The notes beneath the pieces are model-generated. The model saw only the letters and a list, made by a program, of their open reading frames with translations. It had not been told where the DNA came from and made no database searches. Shown here piece after piece: positions 9,149-53,840 of a stretch of 53,939 nt of DNA. The position numbers were made by a program, and so were the translations under genes. Source of the DNA: Candidatus Saccharimonadota bacterium (lineage in GTDB: Bacteria > Patescibacteriota > Saccharimonadia > Saccharimonadales > Saccharimonadaceae); assembly GCA_027493025.1 (NCBI GenBank), contig JAPUDQ010000030.1:1-53939 (forward strand), in the 5' to 3' direction. Position 1 is the first letter of the stretch. The number at the start of each line of letters is the position of its first letter.

Positions 9149-9937
9149 ATGCAAAAAACATATATTACCGACAGATTGTTGCCAAAAATCATCACGAAAA
9201 TATGCCAGCAACGGAATATACACGTTACCTCATTTTCGGATGATTGGGTTTTACGGCTGGAAAGAGACGGTCTGATTCGTTGGATCGTCAGTTCGCAGTT
9301 TGACCTGAACCACGCGGCAGCGAGCGATGTGGTGGGTGACAAGGTCGCCTGCTATCTAGCGCTCCATGACCAAAATGTCCCCGCCGTCGAACATCGGCTC
9401 ATGCGGATTATCGTTTCCCCAGAAATTATGCACGCTGAGTTTGCACATTTTCCTGCGCTCAAGCCAGTCGTCGTTAAACCACTACGTGGCAATGGCGGAC
9501 GCGATGTCCAAAGGTTCGACACTCCTAACGATGCCAGCAACTTTGTTCATAAGCAATCTCACCCCGAATGGACAATTTCACTCTGGCACGATATTCAAAC
9601 GGAAACACGTCTAATAATCCTTGATGGAAAGGTGCTAACAGCGTATGAGAAGTCATCCCAGATGCAAAATGGCCTCAAAATGTTTAATCTCAGCCACGGA
9701 AATAACGCTAAAATCATCACTGCACATCAGGATATTCAGACACTTGCGCTTCGTGCAACGGAAGTCCTTGGTCTGCGATTGTGTGCCGTCGATATCATAA
9801 CGCTCTCTGACGGTCGCCGGCTTGTACTCGAAATCAATGATCATTTCGGTATGGAATATTTCGCCCGCCAATCAGACAAACACTATCACACCGCGTATAC
9901 AGTTTACGAGAAAATCATTGATGCCATGATGGAATAA
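9149..9937 (+). CDS. RimK-like ATP-grasp ligase
   Basis: ATP-grasp enzymes join a carboxylate to an amine via an acyl phosphate. Visible landmarks are the ATP-binding lysine region PVVVKPLRGNGGRDVQ (about residue 108-125), WTISLWHDIQTETRLIILDG, and the metal-binding end LVLEINDHFGMEYF. At 262 aa it is shorter than RimK and its N-terminal domain is divergent, so the substrate is unknown. TATACT ends 7 nt before the ATG at 9149, indicating a leaderless message. The gene stands alone between tRNA-Arg(TCT) and tRNA-Gly. It is one of three ATP-grasp genes in the window. Confidence 0.85.
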   Translation: MQKTYITDRLLPKIITKICQQRNIHVTSFSDDWVLRLERDGLIRWIVSSQFDLNHAAASDVVGDKVACYLALHDQNVPAVEHRLMRIIVSPEIMHAEFAHFPALKPVVVKPLRGNGGRDVQRFDTPNDASNFVHKQSHPEWTISLWHDIQTETRLIILDGKVLTAYEKSSQMQNGLKMFNLSHGNNAKIITAHQDIQTLALRATEVLGLRLCAVDIITLSDGRRLVLEINDHFGMEYFARQSDKHYHTAYTVYEKIIDAMME

Positions 9938-49952: not shown

Positions 49953-49999
49953 CCTCCATAGAAAACATCCTACACGGGGTAGGATGTTTTCTATGGAGG
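49953..49999 (-). terminator. 21-bp palindrome ending the tRNA-Lys unit
   Basis: Arms 49953-49973 and 49979-49999 are perfectly complementary around a 5-nt loop. The inner part AAAACATCCTAC/GTAGGATGTTTT is a terminator; the outer part includes the CCA end of tRNA-Lys, so the hairpin could mask the 3' end until processed. Confidence 0.85.
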
Positions 50000-50070
50000 G
50001 TCCAGTGGGGCTTGAACCCACGACACCCTGCTTAAAAGGCAGGTGCTCTAACCAGCTGAGCTATGGACCC
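49994..50070 (-). tRNA. tRNA-Lys(TTT)
   Basis: Acceptor GGGTCCA/TGGACCC, anticodon stem CCTGC/GCAGG with loop CTTTTAA (anticodon TTT), T arm GTGGG/CCCAC, CCA encoded. The discriminator base is T, unusual for lysine tRNA. Confidence 0.94.
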
Positions 50071-50248
50071 GTATTGGGTATAAAAAACTGTAAGCTGCAA
50101 TCGTTCGGGTCTCAGCATACCTGAGAAAAGGCAGGGTCACGTTCCGCGACCCCGGCACATCGCGGCGATGAACATAGTTCATCCCGGATGATGCCCTTGC
50201 GGAGCGAAGACTTTCGCTCCTCACTCTAACCAGCTGAGCTATGGACCG
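50071..50248 (-). repeat. tRNA-Lys 5'-end mimic leader, interrupted by a 91-nt element
   Basis: A 24-bp exact copy of the tRNA 5' region (acceptor strand and D arm) lies at 50224-50247, 178 bp upstream of 50046-50069 in the tRNA. Beyond the 91-nt element the copy resumes with the anticodon-arm segment CCTGCCTTTT (50126-50135 on the tRNA strand), then CTCAGGTATGCTGAG hairpin. The promoter is upstream of the leader. Confidence 0.9.
50135..50225 (-). ncRNA. Conserved 91-nt structured element (copy 2)
   Basis: Gapless partner of the element at 27546-27636. Of 23 differences, 20 fall in ten base pairs that change on both sides, for example 4 of 8 pairs in the stem at 50201-50220 around its GACT (plus-strand) loop. 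The other three differences are in a bulge, a hairpin loop and an internal loop. It is inserted at the same point of the tRNA copy as in the proline case. Confidence 0.87.
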
Positions 50249-50282
50249 TGTACGATACACATGGTTTGTAAATCACCGCAAT

Positions 50283-50312
50283 AATATAGCATTTTATATC
50301 TGTTGTTGTCAA
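50283..50312 (-). promoter_or_regulatory. Promoter of the leader-tRNA-Lys unit
   Basis: On the minus strand TTGACA, 18-nt spacer, TATATT, about 35 nt before the leader. The -35 box overlaps the stop of the neighbouring membrane-protein gene. Confidence 0.8.
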
Positions 50313-50803
50313 TGTTTACTAGCTTTTTGATGCTTGGCGGCACTAGAGTGAATCATAAAGATGTCAACAAGTGCCAAAACGATACCACTAATAATTATGA
50401 AGCTTTGTCGATTCATTATCATGACCATTACATCGCGAGCTGCTCGATCAGCCGCGGGTGCCAATGTTGAAAATGGTCCTACAATGAGAGCAGTGCCAAA
50501 GATAGCAAATCCCACCGCACCGATCATACTACTGTGTCGACCTGTATATATCGGACCGCCCGCCAATAAAAATATCGCCGGAAGTACCGTAACAATAATA
50601 GCGGCGAGCGCCTGATAGCTATCGACACCAAATCCGATATGATACGTTCGCAGTTGTTCAGCAACAAAGCCCGCACTGTATTGGGCTAAAACCACACCTG
50701 CCGCCAAACCGAGCCCCAGCACACCGAATCGACGTTTTGTAATAAACGCCGCTAAAAATAATCCAATCGCAACTCCCACCAAAATCATAAGCGTCATACT
50801 CAC
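50309..50803 (-). CDS. Small polytopic membrane protein
   Basis: A 164-aa protein with about five hydrophobic segments and short charged loops; no family recognised. TATTAT ends 6 nt before the ATG (leaderless). It is on the same strand as, and upstream of, the tRNA-Lys unit and follows the rimK operon after 32 nt, so it may be read through from it. Confidence 0.75.
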   Translation of the reverse strand: MSMTLMILVGVAIGLFLAAFITKRRFGVLGLGLAAGVVLAQYSAGFVAEQLRTYHIGFGVDSYQALAAIIVTVLPAIFLLAGGPIYTGRHSSMIGAVGFAIFGTALIVGPFSTLAPAADRAARDVMVMIMNRQSFIIISGIVLALVDIFMIHSSAAKHQKASKH

Positions 50804-50835: not shown

Positions 50836-51735
50836 CTACGCACCAATCTTATCTTTTTTGTTGCGACGTTTTGCATTCATTTCGACATAATCAATAATTT
50901 TGCTTGCTACATTTCTTCCCGTAACTTCCTCAATCCCTTCGAGTCCTGGCGAAGAATTTACTTCCAGCACGAGCGGCCCCCTATCACTTCTCATCAAATC
51001 AACACCACAAATCGGCAACCCCATGGCTTTTGCCGCCCGTAGTGCCACCCGTTTCTCTGCCTCATCTAATTTGATGGCTGTTCCTGATCCACCTTGATGA
51101 ATATTAGAACGAAAATCATCATCAAGACTCTGTCGTTTCATACTGGCTACAACGGTATTACCAACGACAAATGCTCGAATATCCGTACCTGCCGACTCTT
51201 TGATAAATTCTTGTATCAAAAAACTTGTATCATTGACATAAAACGCCTGAATTACAGATTTAGCAACTTTTTTGGTCTCAGCAAGAACCACGCCATTCCC
51301 TTGTGTCCCGGATGCCAGTTTAATGATAACTGGCATTTCAAGTCCACTAAGGAGCTCGTCAACACGGTCAGTCTCTCGAGAGAATATCGTCCGAGGAATA
51401 CCCACGCCAGCTTTACTAAGCAGCTGCAATGAACGTAATTTATCCCGAGTTCGCGTCAATGCAATTGATTTAACCGGCGTATATACCCCCATCATCTCAA
51501 ACTGTCGAATGATTGCCGCACCGTAGTTTGTCATTCCCGGCATAACCCGGGGGATAATTGCATCAAGATCATTGAGTACTGTTCCGCGATAATGTACGTC
51601 CGGCTGATCCTGTTGAATCTCAACGTAACACTCTGGGTATTTGACTGTCACGACTTCGTGGTCACGTCGCTCTGCTTCTTCACGCAATCTGCGAACTGTA
51701 TAGCCCGGTGTTCGGGTAATAATGCCTATCTTCAT
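50836..51735 (-). CDS. rimK: RimK, ATP-grasp glutamate ligase
   Basis: E. coli RimK adds glutamates to the C-terminus of ribosomal protein S6. This 299-aa protein follows the E. coli sequence closely by eye: VHYRG, IIPRVMPGMTNYG, LTRTRDKLRSLQLL, VIIKLASGTQGNGVVLAE, FRSNIHQGG and VLEVNSSPGLEGIE, including the ATP-grasp lysines and the Mg-binding Glu/Asn. It is the last gene of a four-gene operon with another ATP-grasp protein, a DUF1704 metallopeptidase and a 47-aa ORF. The target cannot be seen here; rpsF is outside the window. Confidence 0.93.
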   Translation of the reverse strand: MKIGIITRTPGYTVRRLREEAERRDHEVVTVKYPECYVEIQQDQPDVHYRGTVLNDLDAIIPRVMPGMTNYGAAIIRQFEMMGVYTPVKSIALTRTRDKLRSLQLLSKAGVGIPRTIFSRETDRVDELLSGLEMPVIIKLASGTQGNGVVLAETKKVAKSVIQAFYVNDTSFLIQEFIKESAGTDIRAFVVGNTVVASMKRQSLDDDFRSNIHQGGSGTAIKLDEAEKRVALRAAKAMGLPICGVDLMRSDRGPLVLEVNSSPGLEGIEEVTGRNVASKIIDYVEMNAKRRNKKDKIGA

Positions 51736-51736
51736 G

Positions 51737-52624
51737 TCAAATCATTTCTTCTAAAGTTTTTCTCAACATATCCATCTTGCTCGTCGCATCAGTACCAGAT
51801 GTTAATTGCGGGATCGCATTAACTTCTAGACAACTGTACTCAACGGGTGAATTGCGATCTGGTATCAGATCGATCCCAGCTAGTTCTCTGTGCATATTAT
51901 TACATATTTTTCGACACATTGTCAATATTTCAGTGCTCAAACTATCCAGTGACAGCCACGTAGCTATCCCGCCTTGTGAAGTATTATTTAGATGCGTCTC
52001 CGAAGACTGACGCGATCGTTTCATAACAAGTTTTGGTTCGCCACCGAAACATATTACTCTCAGATCATGATCGTTCGGTAAGAAGTCTTGCACTAATAAG
52101 TTCTGCTTGGCTTCGAGAATTTTTTGTCGCATAGTTTCGTCTTGTACCAAATAATTGAAACTCCCGCGACTTGCAGCTGGAGCTTTGGCGATACATGGTA
52201 GTGAAGCACTCTCAAGATGCCGCTTTGACAAAGAGAACGTTGTATGCGGCACGGGAATATTCTGAAGCGCGAGCTCAACCATACACGACAATTTTGTCAT
52301 CGATCGTTGAGTACCGATCTCTGAATTCCAAACTGGTATGCGTCGATGTTCCAAATATTTTGCAAACGAATAAGCGATATCACGATAGATACTTTTGTCA
52401 CCATTTTTATACCAGCCAAATGCAAGTACCAGATCAATAGATAATGTATCAAGGTTTGTATCACCACAAGATATTGAGACGTAGCCTGTCTGAATATCGA
52501 ACAGCATTTCCTCCCAATAAGCTAACTGAACTGCACTCTTGTCAGTCTGAATCGCTTGCGCAATCACCGCAGGATCATTTTTTGACCCAACGTCTTTACT
52601 GCCAATAACTAAAATGTTTTTCAT
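51737..52624 (-). CDS. Second ATP-grasp protein of the rimK operon
   Basis: A 295-aa ATP-grasp protein, divergent from RimK. Recognisable parts are SMTKLSCMVELALQNIPVPHT (pre-ATP-grasp helix), CIAKAPAASRGSFNYLV (lysine with a Gly-poor loop), LVQDFLPNDHDLRVICFGG, and the metal site YSCLEVNAIPQL. The N-terminal domain is unrelated to that of RimK, so it probably takes another substrate. It overlaps the DUF1704 gene by 4 nt and precedes rimK by 1 nt, so all are made together. Confidence 0.85.
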   Translation of the reverse strand: MKNILVIGSKDVGSKNDPAVIAQAIQTDKSAVQLAYWEEMLFDIQTGYVSISCGDTNLDTLSIDLVLAFGWYKNGDKSIYRDIAYSFAKYLEHRRIPVWNSEIGTQRSMTKLSCMVELALQNIPVPHTTFSLSKRHLESASLPCIAKAPAASRGSFNYLVQDETMRQKILEAKQNLLVQDFLPNDHDLRVICFGGEPKLVMKRSRQSSETHLNNTSQGGIATWLSLDSLSTEILTMCRKICNNMHRELAGIDLIPDRNSPVEYSCLEVNAIPQLTSGTDATSKMDMLRKTLEEMI

Positions 52625-53700
52625 AAAAGTTTTTTCCTCCCTTCGATTATATCGACAAAATCGTCATACGATGGAGTATCATCGATGCACCTTTGCCAAA
52701 CCTTCATGTTCCCTATAAAATAAATCGTATCTTTTAAATAGACAGACCCTGCGAGATTAGGAATACCACCACGAAAAACCCGCGCACATTCATCGAAGGC
52801 ATGTTCTTTCGCTGTGTTCTCTTTATATTTACCACGTATCACCATAAGCCTCCAAATGATCTCATACACCTCGCGAAACGTCCGCGGTTTGTCGAGTACT
52901 CCCCAGCCAAGCGCAGCTGCTACGTACCGATACGACCGTTTGGTAGTAAACTTTTGCTCTGATAGTTGTTCAAGCATTGTCGCGAAACCTTCGCTCTCCA
53001 AAAAATCATCGGCCACATTTCTTAAAGCATGGCCATAGACTTCATGAAGCACGATACTCCTGATGGCTTTTTGCGTACGCGGCGAATAGTCTGCACCTAT
53101 CACTATGGTTTTTTGAGCATGTATCGTGCGCGCAAAATGCGGGCCGCGTTGTTCTTGTATGGACCAGCCTTGTTTAACTAGTCCGGTAGCTATTAATGCT
53201 TTTTCAATAGCTTCATATAGGATAGGCGAATCCAGATCGTGCAGGGCAATATATCGTTCCAAATGCTCTTGCATTGTCTTGAATAGTTCAGATGACGGTT
53301 GCTGGATCGTATGATCTGGTGCTGGTAGCGCTACATTGTATTTGATATATTCCCATAAATATGACGTCTGATGAGTCACTTTTTGTTGAGTTCGATCCAA
53401 GATATAGCCTACATCACTCGGTCTTGGTATCTCATAGAGAGCGGCATTGGCTCGACGGAAATATCCTAAGTTGTTAGATGTTTGGTGTTGTCGTAACTGC
53501 AGTGACGCAAGAACCAGCTCGAGGTTTTGACGAGCCCGTTCATCTATAGTACTTTTTATACGACGTTCAATTTCACCTTCGGAAACGTCTTTGTATATAA
53601 ACTCAGGCTGCGCTACTACGCCACTAATAAAGCGGTGTTTCTCTGTGACCTTATTATCTATCCTAAAATACGTGTACGCTGAGGTAGGATATTGGCTCAT
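52621..53700 (-). CDS. DUF1704 metallopeptidase (MATCAP-like)
   Basis: A 359-aa protein of the DUF1704 family, named in bacteria after a QEGLA motif. The zinc site is HEVYGH (His219, Glu220, His224; HExxxH) with a third ligand region FLESEGFAT (Glu237). Eukaryotic relatives (MATCAP/TMCP) are carboxypeptidases that trim C-terminal tyrosine and glutamate from tubulin tails. No signal peptide, so it is cytoplasmic. Its start overlaps the stop of the 47-aa ORF (ATGA), and its end overlaps the ATP-grasp gene by 4 nt. Together with RimK it suggests a writer/eraser pair for C-terminal tails (inference). Confidence 0.88.
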   Translation of the reverse strand: MSQYPTSAYTYFRIDNKVTEKHRFISGVVAQPEFIYKDVSEGEIERRIKSTIDERARQNLELVLASLQLRQHQTSNNLGYFRRANAALYEIPRPSDVGYILDRTQQKVTHQTSYLWEYIKYNVALPAPDHTIQQPSSELFKTMQEHLERYIALHDLDSPILYEAIEKALIATGLVKQGWSIQEQRGPHFARTIHAQKTIVIGADYSPRTQKAIRSIVLHEVYGHALRNVADDFLESEGFATMLEQLSEQKFTTKRSYRYVAAALGWGVLDKPRTFREVYEIIWRLMVIRGKYKENTAKEHAFDECARVFRGGIPNLAGSVYLKDTIYFIGNMKVWQRCIDDTPSYDDFVDIIEGRKKLL

Positions 53701-53840
53701 ACATCACTACTATACGGAATCATACCAAATTTTTCCTGATTACCCTGGTGAGAGGCTAGAATCATACACAAATTTGCACGGTCTTCATCGATCTGCGGGT
53801 CAGTTCTAACTGGAAGTGATAGTCCTTCGCGCATGTACAT
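53697..53840 (-). CDS. 47-aa ORF leading the DUF1704-rimK operon
   Basis: A small reading frame (start MYMREGLSLPVRTDPQIDED, end MIPYSSDV) ends in an ATGA overlap with the DUF1704 gene and starts just after a -10 box. The position and coupling argue that it is translated. No family is recognised. It might be a regulator (in pseudomonads a small rimA gene leads rimABK), a substrate peptide, or only a leader ORF that couples translation. A second Met (53834) could be the true start. Confidence 0.6.
   Translation of the reverse strand: MYMREGLSLPVRTDPQIDEDRANLCMILASHQGNQEKFGMIPYSSDV

Follow-up and report, generated by a model that had tools for sequence, protein, structure and literature searches.

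Several described systems share components with the locus reported here. In RimABK of Pseudomonas, the ligase RimK is co-encoded with a retropepsin, RimB, that acts as its eraser, and the RimBK hybrid protein of Desulfotalea psychrophila and others couples Rim eraser and ligase as one unit. Some bacteria, E. coli among them, use RimK without any known eraser. RloABC of Pseudomonas also pairs a RimK-like ATP-grasp ligase (RloC) with a retropepsin (RloA), while the ligases LysX and ArgX, acting on LysW, use a protein's C-terminal Glu as the point of attachment for amino acids. The known job of RimB is to take glutamates off RpsF; RimK can also make free poly-Glu, RimB stimulates RimK, and rimK-only genomes have been described (PMC11957791). 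Among tubulin carboxypeptidases, MATCAP1/TMCP1 and TMCP2 (KIAA0895L, KIAA0895) act on C-terminal Glu and polyglutamate, and human and Tetrahymena relatives cleave C-terminal tyrosine, glutamate and post-translational polyglutamate (PMC10499314).

We analysed a stretch of 53,939 nucleotides (the window), a 53.9-kb contig from a genome of 0.91 Mb (98% complete, 45 contigs), near the end of which a minus-strand operon encodes a short DUF1704 metallopeptidase (MATCAP), a divergent ATP-grasp ligase (DATPG) and RimK. Nearly all relatives recovered by protein search belong to Candidatus Saccharibacteria, and the window's genome is Saccharibacterial. The operon resembles RimABK in its RimK-family ligase, its co-encoded protease and the Glu-ending S6/RpsF of its host, but differs in that RimB is absent genome-wide, its own protease, an HExxxH metallopeptidase, is unrelated to RimB, and a second ATP-grasp ligase has been added. 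The RimBK hybrid uses a retropepsin as eraser, whereas here the genes are separate and the eraser has another fold. RloABC has the same pairing of ligase and peptidase, and other Patescibacteria have MATCAP fused with ligases of the RloC type, but the RloABC retropepsin is secreted, its transglutaminase is inactive and it does not act on S6. LysX and ArgX serve the carriers of amino-acid biosynthesis; the window's operon has no lysine or arginine pathway gene. With the tubulin carboxypeptidases the peptidase shares its fold, the HExxxH motif and a downstream Glu, in a bacterial operon with a ligase and no tubulin.

A first-pass annotation of this DNA had described four tightly coupled genes and suggested that the DUF1704 protein could fill the role of RimB. 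Our preferred reading, to which we assign a probability of about 0.52, is that the operon encodes a variant of the Rim system, in which tail erasing has passed from RimB to a carboxypeptidase of the MATCAP type.

Operon Anatomy

Three minus-strand ORFs overlap or abut in the order MATCAP-DATPG-RimK: MATCAP (359 aa, 52621-53700), DATPG (295 aa, 51737-52624), whose ORF overlaps that of MATCAP by 4 nt, and RimK (299 aa, 50836-51735). The tight coupling of these three genes stands as first described; the fourth member, a 47-aa ORF (53697-53840, minus strand), does not. It overlaps the MATCAP start in an ATGA, matches no family in Pfam or NCBIfam, and is probably not a gene, because a homologue sought upstream of six other short MATCAP genes was found at none of these orthologous loci (0/6). 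As it is not conserved, we rejected it both as a fourth operon gene and as a RiPP precursor. A RiPP-like pathway, with DATPG as modifier and MATCAP as cutter, could draw on the small size of the ORF, the ATGA overlap and its position upstream of peptidase and ATP-grasp genes, but the six orthologous genes without an upstream homologue, and the closer relation of DATPG to ArgX and RimK than to the graspetide ligase PsnB, leave it next to no credibility.

Two features lay outside the first-pass annotation. Upstream, 99 bp separate the 47-aa ORF from the contig end, in the place that dnaK-dnaJ occupy in relatives, and downstream of RimK lies a 164-aa protein (family f2; 50309-50803, minus strand) which keeps this position across 38 Saccharibacteria loci. 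The latter matched nothing in Pfam or NCBIfam and is predicted, from its hydrophobic sequence, to be a membrane protein. Promoter and terminator scans of the operon region returned nothing beyond the level of shuffled sequence. Further along the window, a tRNA-Lys(ttt) occupies 49994-50070 (minus strand), and part of its end is repeated some 150 bp further on (about 50222-50250). The same genome encodes two more RimK-family ATP-grasp proteins, unlinked to the operon, at 9338-9874 (plus strand) of the window and at G000:C43:3493-4032.

The MATCAP Peptidase

The match of the MATCAP ORF to PF08014 is modest but passes the family cut-off (E 4.4e-7; 29.6 bits against 27). Its HEVYGH sequence (residues 219-224; 53029-53046, minus strand) is an HExxxH zinc-binding/catalytic motif, which profile alignment identifies as the same motif as that of human MATCAP. 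H219, E220 and H224 are invariant in an alignment of 42 relatives, as is E237 (EGFA; 52990-52992, minus strand). E237-G238 is the equivalent of the downstream EEG/QEGLA glutamate motif, described as EEG for TMCP1 (PMC10499314), and E237 is the putative third zinc ligand. An AlphaFold2 model (pLDDT 95.0, pTM 0.92) finds its best PDB match in human MATCAP (7z5g; Z 16.4 over 241 residues, rmsd 3.9); the next other entry reaches Z 10.1, and scores are near 10 for DUF885 proteins and near 8 for M32 carboxypeptidases. The first-pass identification of a DUF1704 HExxxH peptidase is thus borne out. At the sequence level the match to human MATCAP is weak (about 18% of aligned positions identical), and MATCAP evolves much faster than RimK. 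The window's protein belongs to a distinct short clade (n=7). The activity on C-terminal Glu and polyglutamate known from the tubulin enzymes is predicted for it, and it would cleave alpha-linked glutamates.

The Two Ligases and the S6 Tail

The alpha-L-glutamate ligase RimK has full-length RimK domains (PF08443, 2.5e-60; Rimk_N PF18030, 5e-29) and matches Pseudomonas RimK (7qyr) over its full length (4.9e-92), with FRSN.H.GGS and LEVNSSPGLEGIE conserved. Its score against the NCBIfam equivalog PRK10446 (312.5 bits) falls below the cut-off of 331, while that against the wider subfamily TIGR00768 (255 against 143) exceeds it; we therefore assign it to the RimK family without calling it the E. 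coli equivalog.

DATPG, of type A, matches the RimK-like ATP-grasp family PF08443 at E 8e-13, and both ligases are accordingly what the first-pass annotation had taken them for. Against NCBIfam, DATPG reached no single model's cut-off (best 81.8 bits, with 143.4 needed). Its ATP/Mg residues K111, K147, D252, E267 and N269 are invariant in 33 relatives, by which we ruled out an inactive pseudoenzyme. An HxNNTS motif, likewise invariant in 33 sequences, stands where RimK has FRSNIH. The model (pLDDT 94) is closest among solved folds to ArgX (Z 16.2) and then to RimK (Z 14.6). DATPG thus probably works as an active ligase on a substrate different from that of RimK, and is a candidate second writer. 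DATPG sits directly upstream of RimK, where RimB is normally found. Because elsewhere it adjoins RimB or is fused with it, DATPG is most plausibly a long-standing accessory of the RimB/RimK locus rather than a new pairing.

S6 in the window's genome ends in ...AEKSDDKEEE, so that the acidic, Glu-ending acceptor tail on which the first-pass proposal depended is present. That of another short-MATCAP genome (G289) ends in ...EEGEEE, and in some others the end is EEA, EEK or DNE. Among the genomes sampled, 25 of 44 that have RimK possess an EE-ending S6, vs 9 of 37 that lack it (p 0.004, kinship ignored), and many RimK-less genomes also have acidic S6 tails. Given the Glu-rich S6 ends, the association of EE with RimK and the known deglutamylation of RpsF by RimB, we read MATCAP as a tail eraser, with S6 as its presumptive substrate.

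Distribution and History of the Module

We sampled 247 genomes of the order, defining strong RimK by E below 1e-50 and RimB by PF05618; the counts are based on draft genomes, in draws of 247 to 393, and on mechanical ORF picks as the gene calls of relatives. Strong RimK occurs in 197 genomes, RimB in 192 and MATCAP in 61. RimB is present in 189 of the 197 strong-RimK genomes, usually directly upstream of RimK, and a typical Saccharibacteria locus reads dnaK-dnaJ-(MATCAP)-(DATPG)-RimB-RimK-(DUF192)-164-aa protein. At some rim loci, RimB is fused with DATPG-like or other ATP-grasp domains in either order. Strong RimK accompanies MATCAP in 56 of 61 genomes, which upholds the co-occurrence of DUF1704 with RimK that the first-pass proposal relied upon. 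The two genes lie within 7 kb of each other in 38 of these 61 (37 on the same strand), where about 1.6% would be expected by chance, and apart in 23.

A search for RimB (PF05618) found no match anywhere in the window's genome, which is 98% complete. Eight of the 197 strong-RimK genomes lack it (G000, G003, G030, G058, G090, G143, G147, G183), and seven of the eight, the window's included, carry DATPG type A directly upstream of RimK. All seven DATPG-A genomes are without RimB (Fisher 4e-12, shared descent ignored), and the gene before DATPG is MATCAP in six; in the seventh, G058, the contig ends there. In a wider sample, every short-MATCAP locus (7/7: the window, L217, L218, L219, L220, L221 and L223) has the order MATCAP-DATPG-RimK and no RimB at the locus. 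The loss of RimB where MATCAP and a second ligase are encoded with RimK suggests MATCAP as the replacement eraser. The first-pass suggestion thus survives for this operon type, in which RimB was never found, and fails as a general rule: 51 of 52 other MATCAP+RimK genomes retain RimB, and the RimB active-site motif is intact in every complete Saccharibacteria copy examined (87 of 90 domains, the other three being truncated or incomplete). MATCAP is therefore no general RimB substitute and, as a narrowed reading, the replacement is specific to this operon lineage.

In the RimK tree, ten RimB-less RimKs with DATPG-A group together (94/62), nine of them at 98/77. Their cluster stands apart from the main RimB-bearing clade, and its hosts span four families. 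The same main groups recur in the RimK, DATPG and short-MATCAP trees, and this congruence shows that the three genes are co-inherited and travel as a unit into one chromosomal locus. Many independent losses of RimB are unsupported, as RimB-less RimKs fall mainly in one clade; the loss in this module was probably one event, and the Fisher value is therefore descriptive. Two RimB-less loci (G003, G183) carry a MATCAP of a different clade, the long form, at the same place, which suggests that MATCAP was recruited to the RimB-less operon more than once.

The dnaJ-rimK interval of Saccharibacteria (L222-L264) is a hotspot in which predicted ligases and amidases vary, among them, as named from sequence only, extra ATP-grasps, a Mur-ligase-like and a glutamine-amidotransferase-like protein. 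Its contents suggest that the chemistry of tails or peptides here goes beyond S6 glutamylation alone. RimB-RimK fusion genes resembling the published RimBK hybrids also occur in Saccharibacteria (L234, L235, L236, L244). Two typical Saccharibacterial rim loci, L241 and L263, are on contigs labelled Nomurabacteria and Chloroflexi, which are probably misbinned.

MATCAP Fusions in Other Patescibacteria

In other Patescibacteria, MATCAP forms part of a larger protein, 670-840 aa long, at 24 of the 30 MATCAP loci that we examined (L302-L304, L306, L307, L309-L324, L327, L328, L330). A RimK-related ligase (TIGR02291/PF14397) lies N-terminal to MATCAP in all eight fusions tested with profile libraries; these ligases are of the RloC type (TIGR02291), not RimK. 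Between them is a retropepsin-like domain with a weak match to RimB. Among the 23 alignable fusions, this middle domain has lost the catalytic Asp in 11 and retains an intact D[TS]G in two; all 24 fusion proteins, by contrast, keep HExxxH. RimB of Saccharibacteria shows no such erosion in its complete copies. The pattern offers a second, separate hint that MATCAP and retropepsin overlap in function. In one further operon (L325:2-3926), a fused RloC-like ligase and retropepsin is accompanied by a MATCAP and by a RimK-family protein of 476 aa, and another locus (L308) places MATCAP/DUF1704 and ATP-grasp beside an N-formylglutamate amidohydrolase. Such DUF1704/ATP-grasp neighbourhoods with N-formylglutamate amidohydrolase have reportedly been described before. 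Our literature search, largely confined to open-access papers, found no paper naming DUF1704 together with RimK.

Discussion

In the variant Rim system that we favour, MATCAP would be a zinc metallo-carboxypeptidase taking glutamates off the same tail to which RimK adds them, and so would do the job of the retropepsin RimB in most Saccharibacteria and in pseudomonads. DATPG would act as a catalytically competent second ligase, its product being added to, or trimmed from, the same tail. Several points count against MATCAP as eraser. Most MATCAP+RimK genomes keep an intact RimB, and MATCAP can therefore serve another step; the association of RimB-less loci with DATPG-A may rest on a single event, since RimB-less RimK is essentially one clade; and some bacteria use RimK without a known eraser, rimK-only genomes being on record (PMC11957791). 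The fast evolution of MATCAP and its weak sequence match to the human protein, the S6 tails ending in EEA, EEK or DNE and the weak match of the fusion domain to RimB also tell against it.

RimK, DATPG and MATCAP could also assemble and shorten a poly-amino-acid whose carrier is a free peptide or some other protein, with S6 not the main target. The dnaJ-rimK region often holds further predicted amidoligases, the Patescibacteria fusions couple MATCAP to TIGR02291 ligases in place of RimK, acidic S6 tails are frequent in RimK-less genomes too, and RimK makes free poly-Glu under stimulation by RimB (PMC11957791). We nevertheless regard another target as unlikely, given a full-length RimK close to S6-modifying RimKs, the association of EE-ending S6 with RimK, and a usual RimK partner, RimB, that is itself an S6 tail protease. 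A division of the operon is improbable: DATPG and MATCAP would then act as writer and eraser on a substrate of their own, simply co-transcribed with an eraser-less RimK, as the occurrence of DATPG beside or fused to RimB elsewhere, its own HxNNTS substrate motif and the 23 of 61 genomes with MATCAP away from RimK would allow, but the three gene trees are congruent, gene order is constant, and RimB is lost exactly in the MATCAP-DATPG-RimK operon type.

MATCAP might also be a maturase, trimming the last S6 residue or residues to expose a Glu acceptor for RimK, by analogy with the tubulin detyrosination that exposes Glu; human MATCAP cuts a terminal non-Glu residue after EE, and in several S6 proteins a single different residue follows the EE (G147 EEA, G297 EEK, G082 EEK). 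Such tails show no significant excess with MATCAP (5/17 MATCAP+ vs 4/27 MATCAP- RimK genomes, p 0.27), on which ground we rejected an S6 'uncapping' enzyme, and the S6 of the window's genome is already Glu-ended, which makes a maturase distinctly improbable.

Returning to MATCAP as the replacement eraser, full RimB replacement in the window and retropepsins decaying beside intact MATCAP in the fusions lead us to a broader and more tentative proposal, possible though short of an even chance: that reversible ribosomal-protein polyglutamylation has two unrelated erasers, that metallopeptidases of the MATCAP type originated in bacteria, where RimK-like glutamate ligases were their partners, and that the eukaryotic tubulin detyrosinase/deglutamylase has a ligase-coupled tail eraser of bacteria as its ancestor or its parallel. 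Saccharibacteria are genetically tractable (PMC10633639). If the replacement is real, bacterial DUF1704 proteins, for which no paper in our search reports a tested function, would gain a concrete substrate class, and the locus would constitute a natural experiment in which one eraser has been swapped for another at the same place. The same peptidase family would then join a bacterial ribosome-tail code to the tubulin-tail code.
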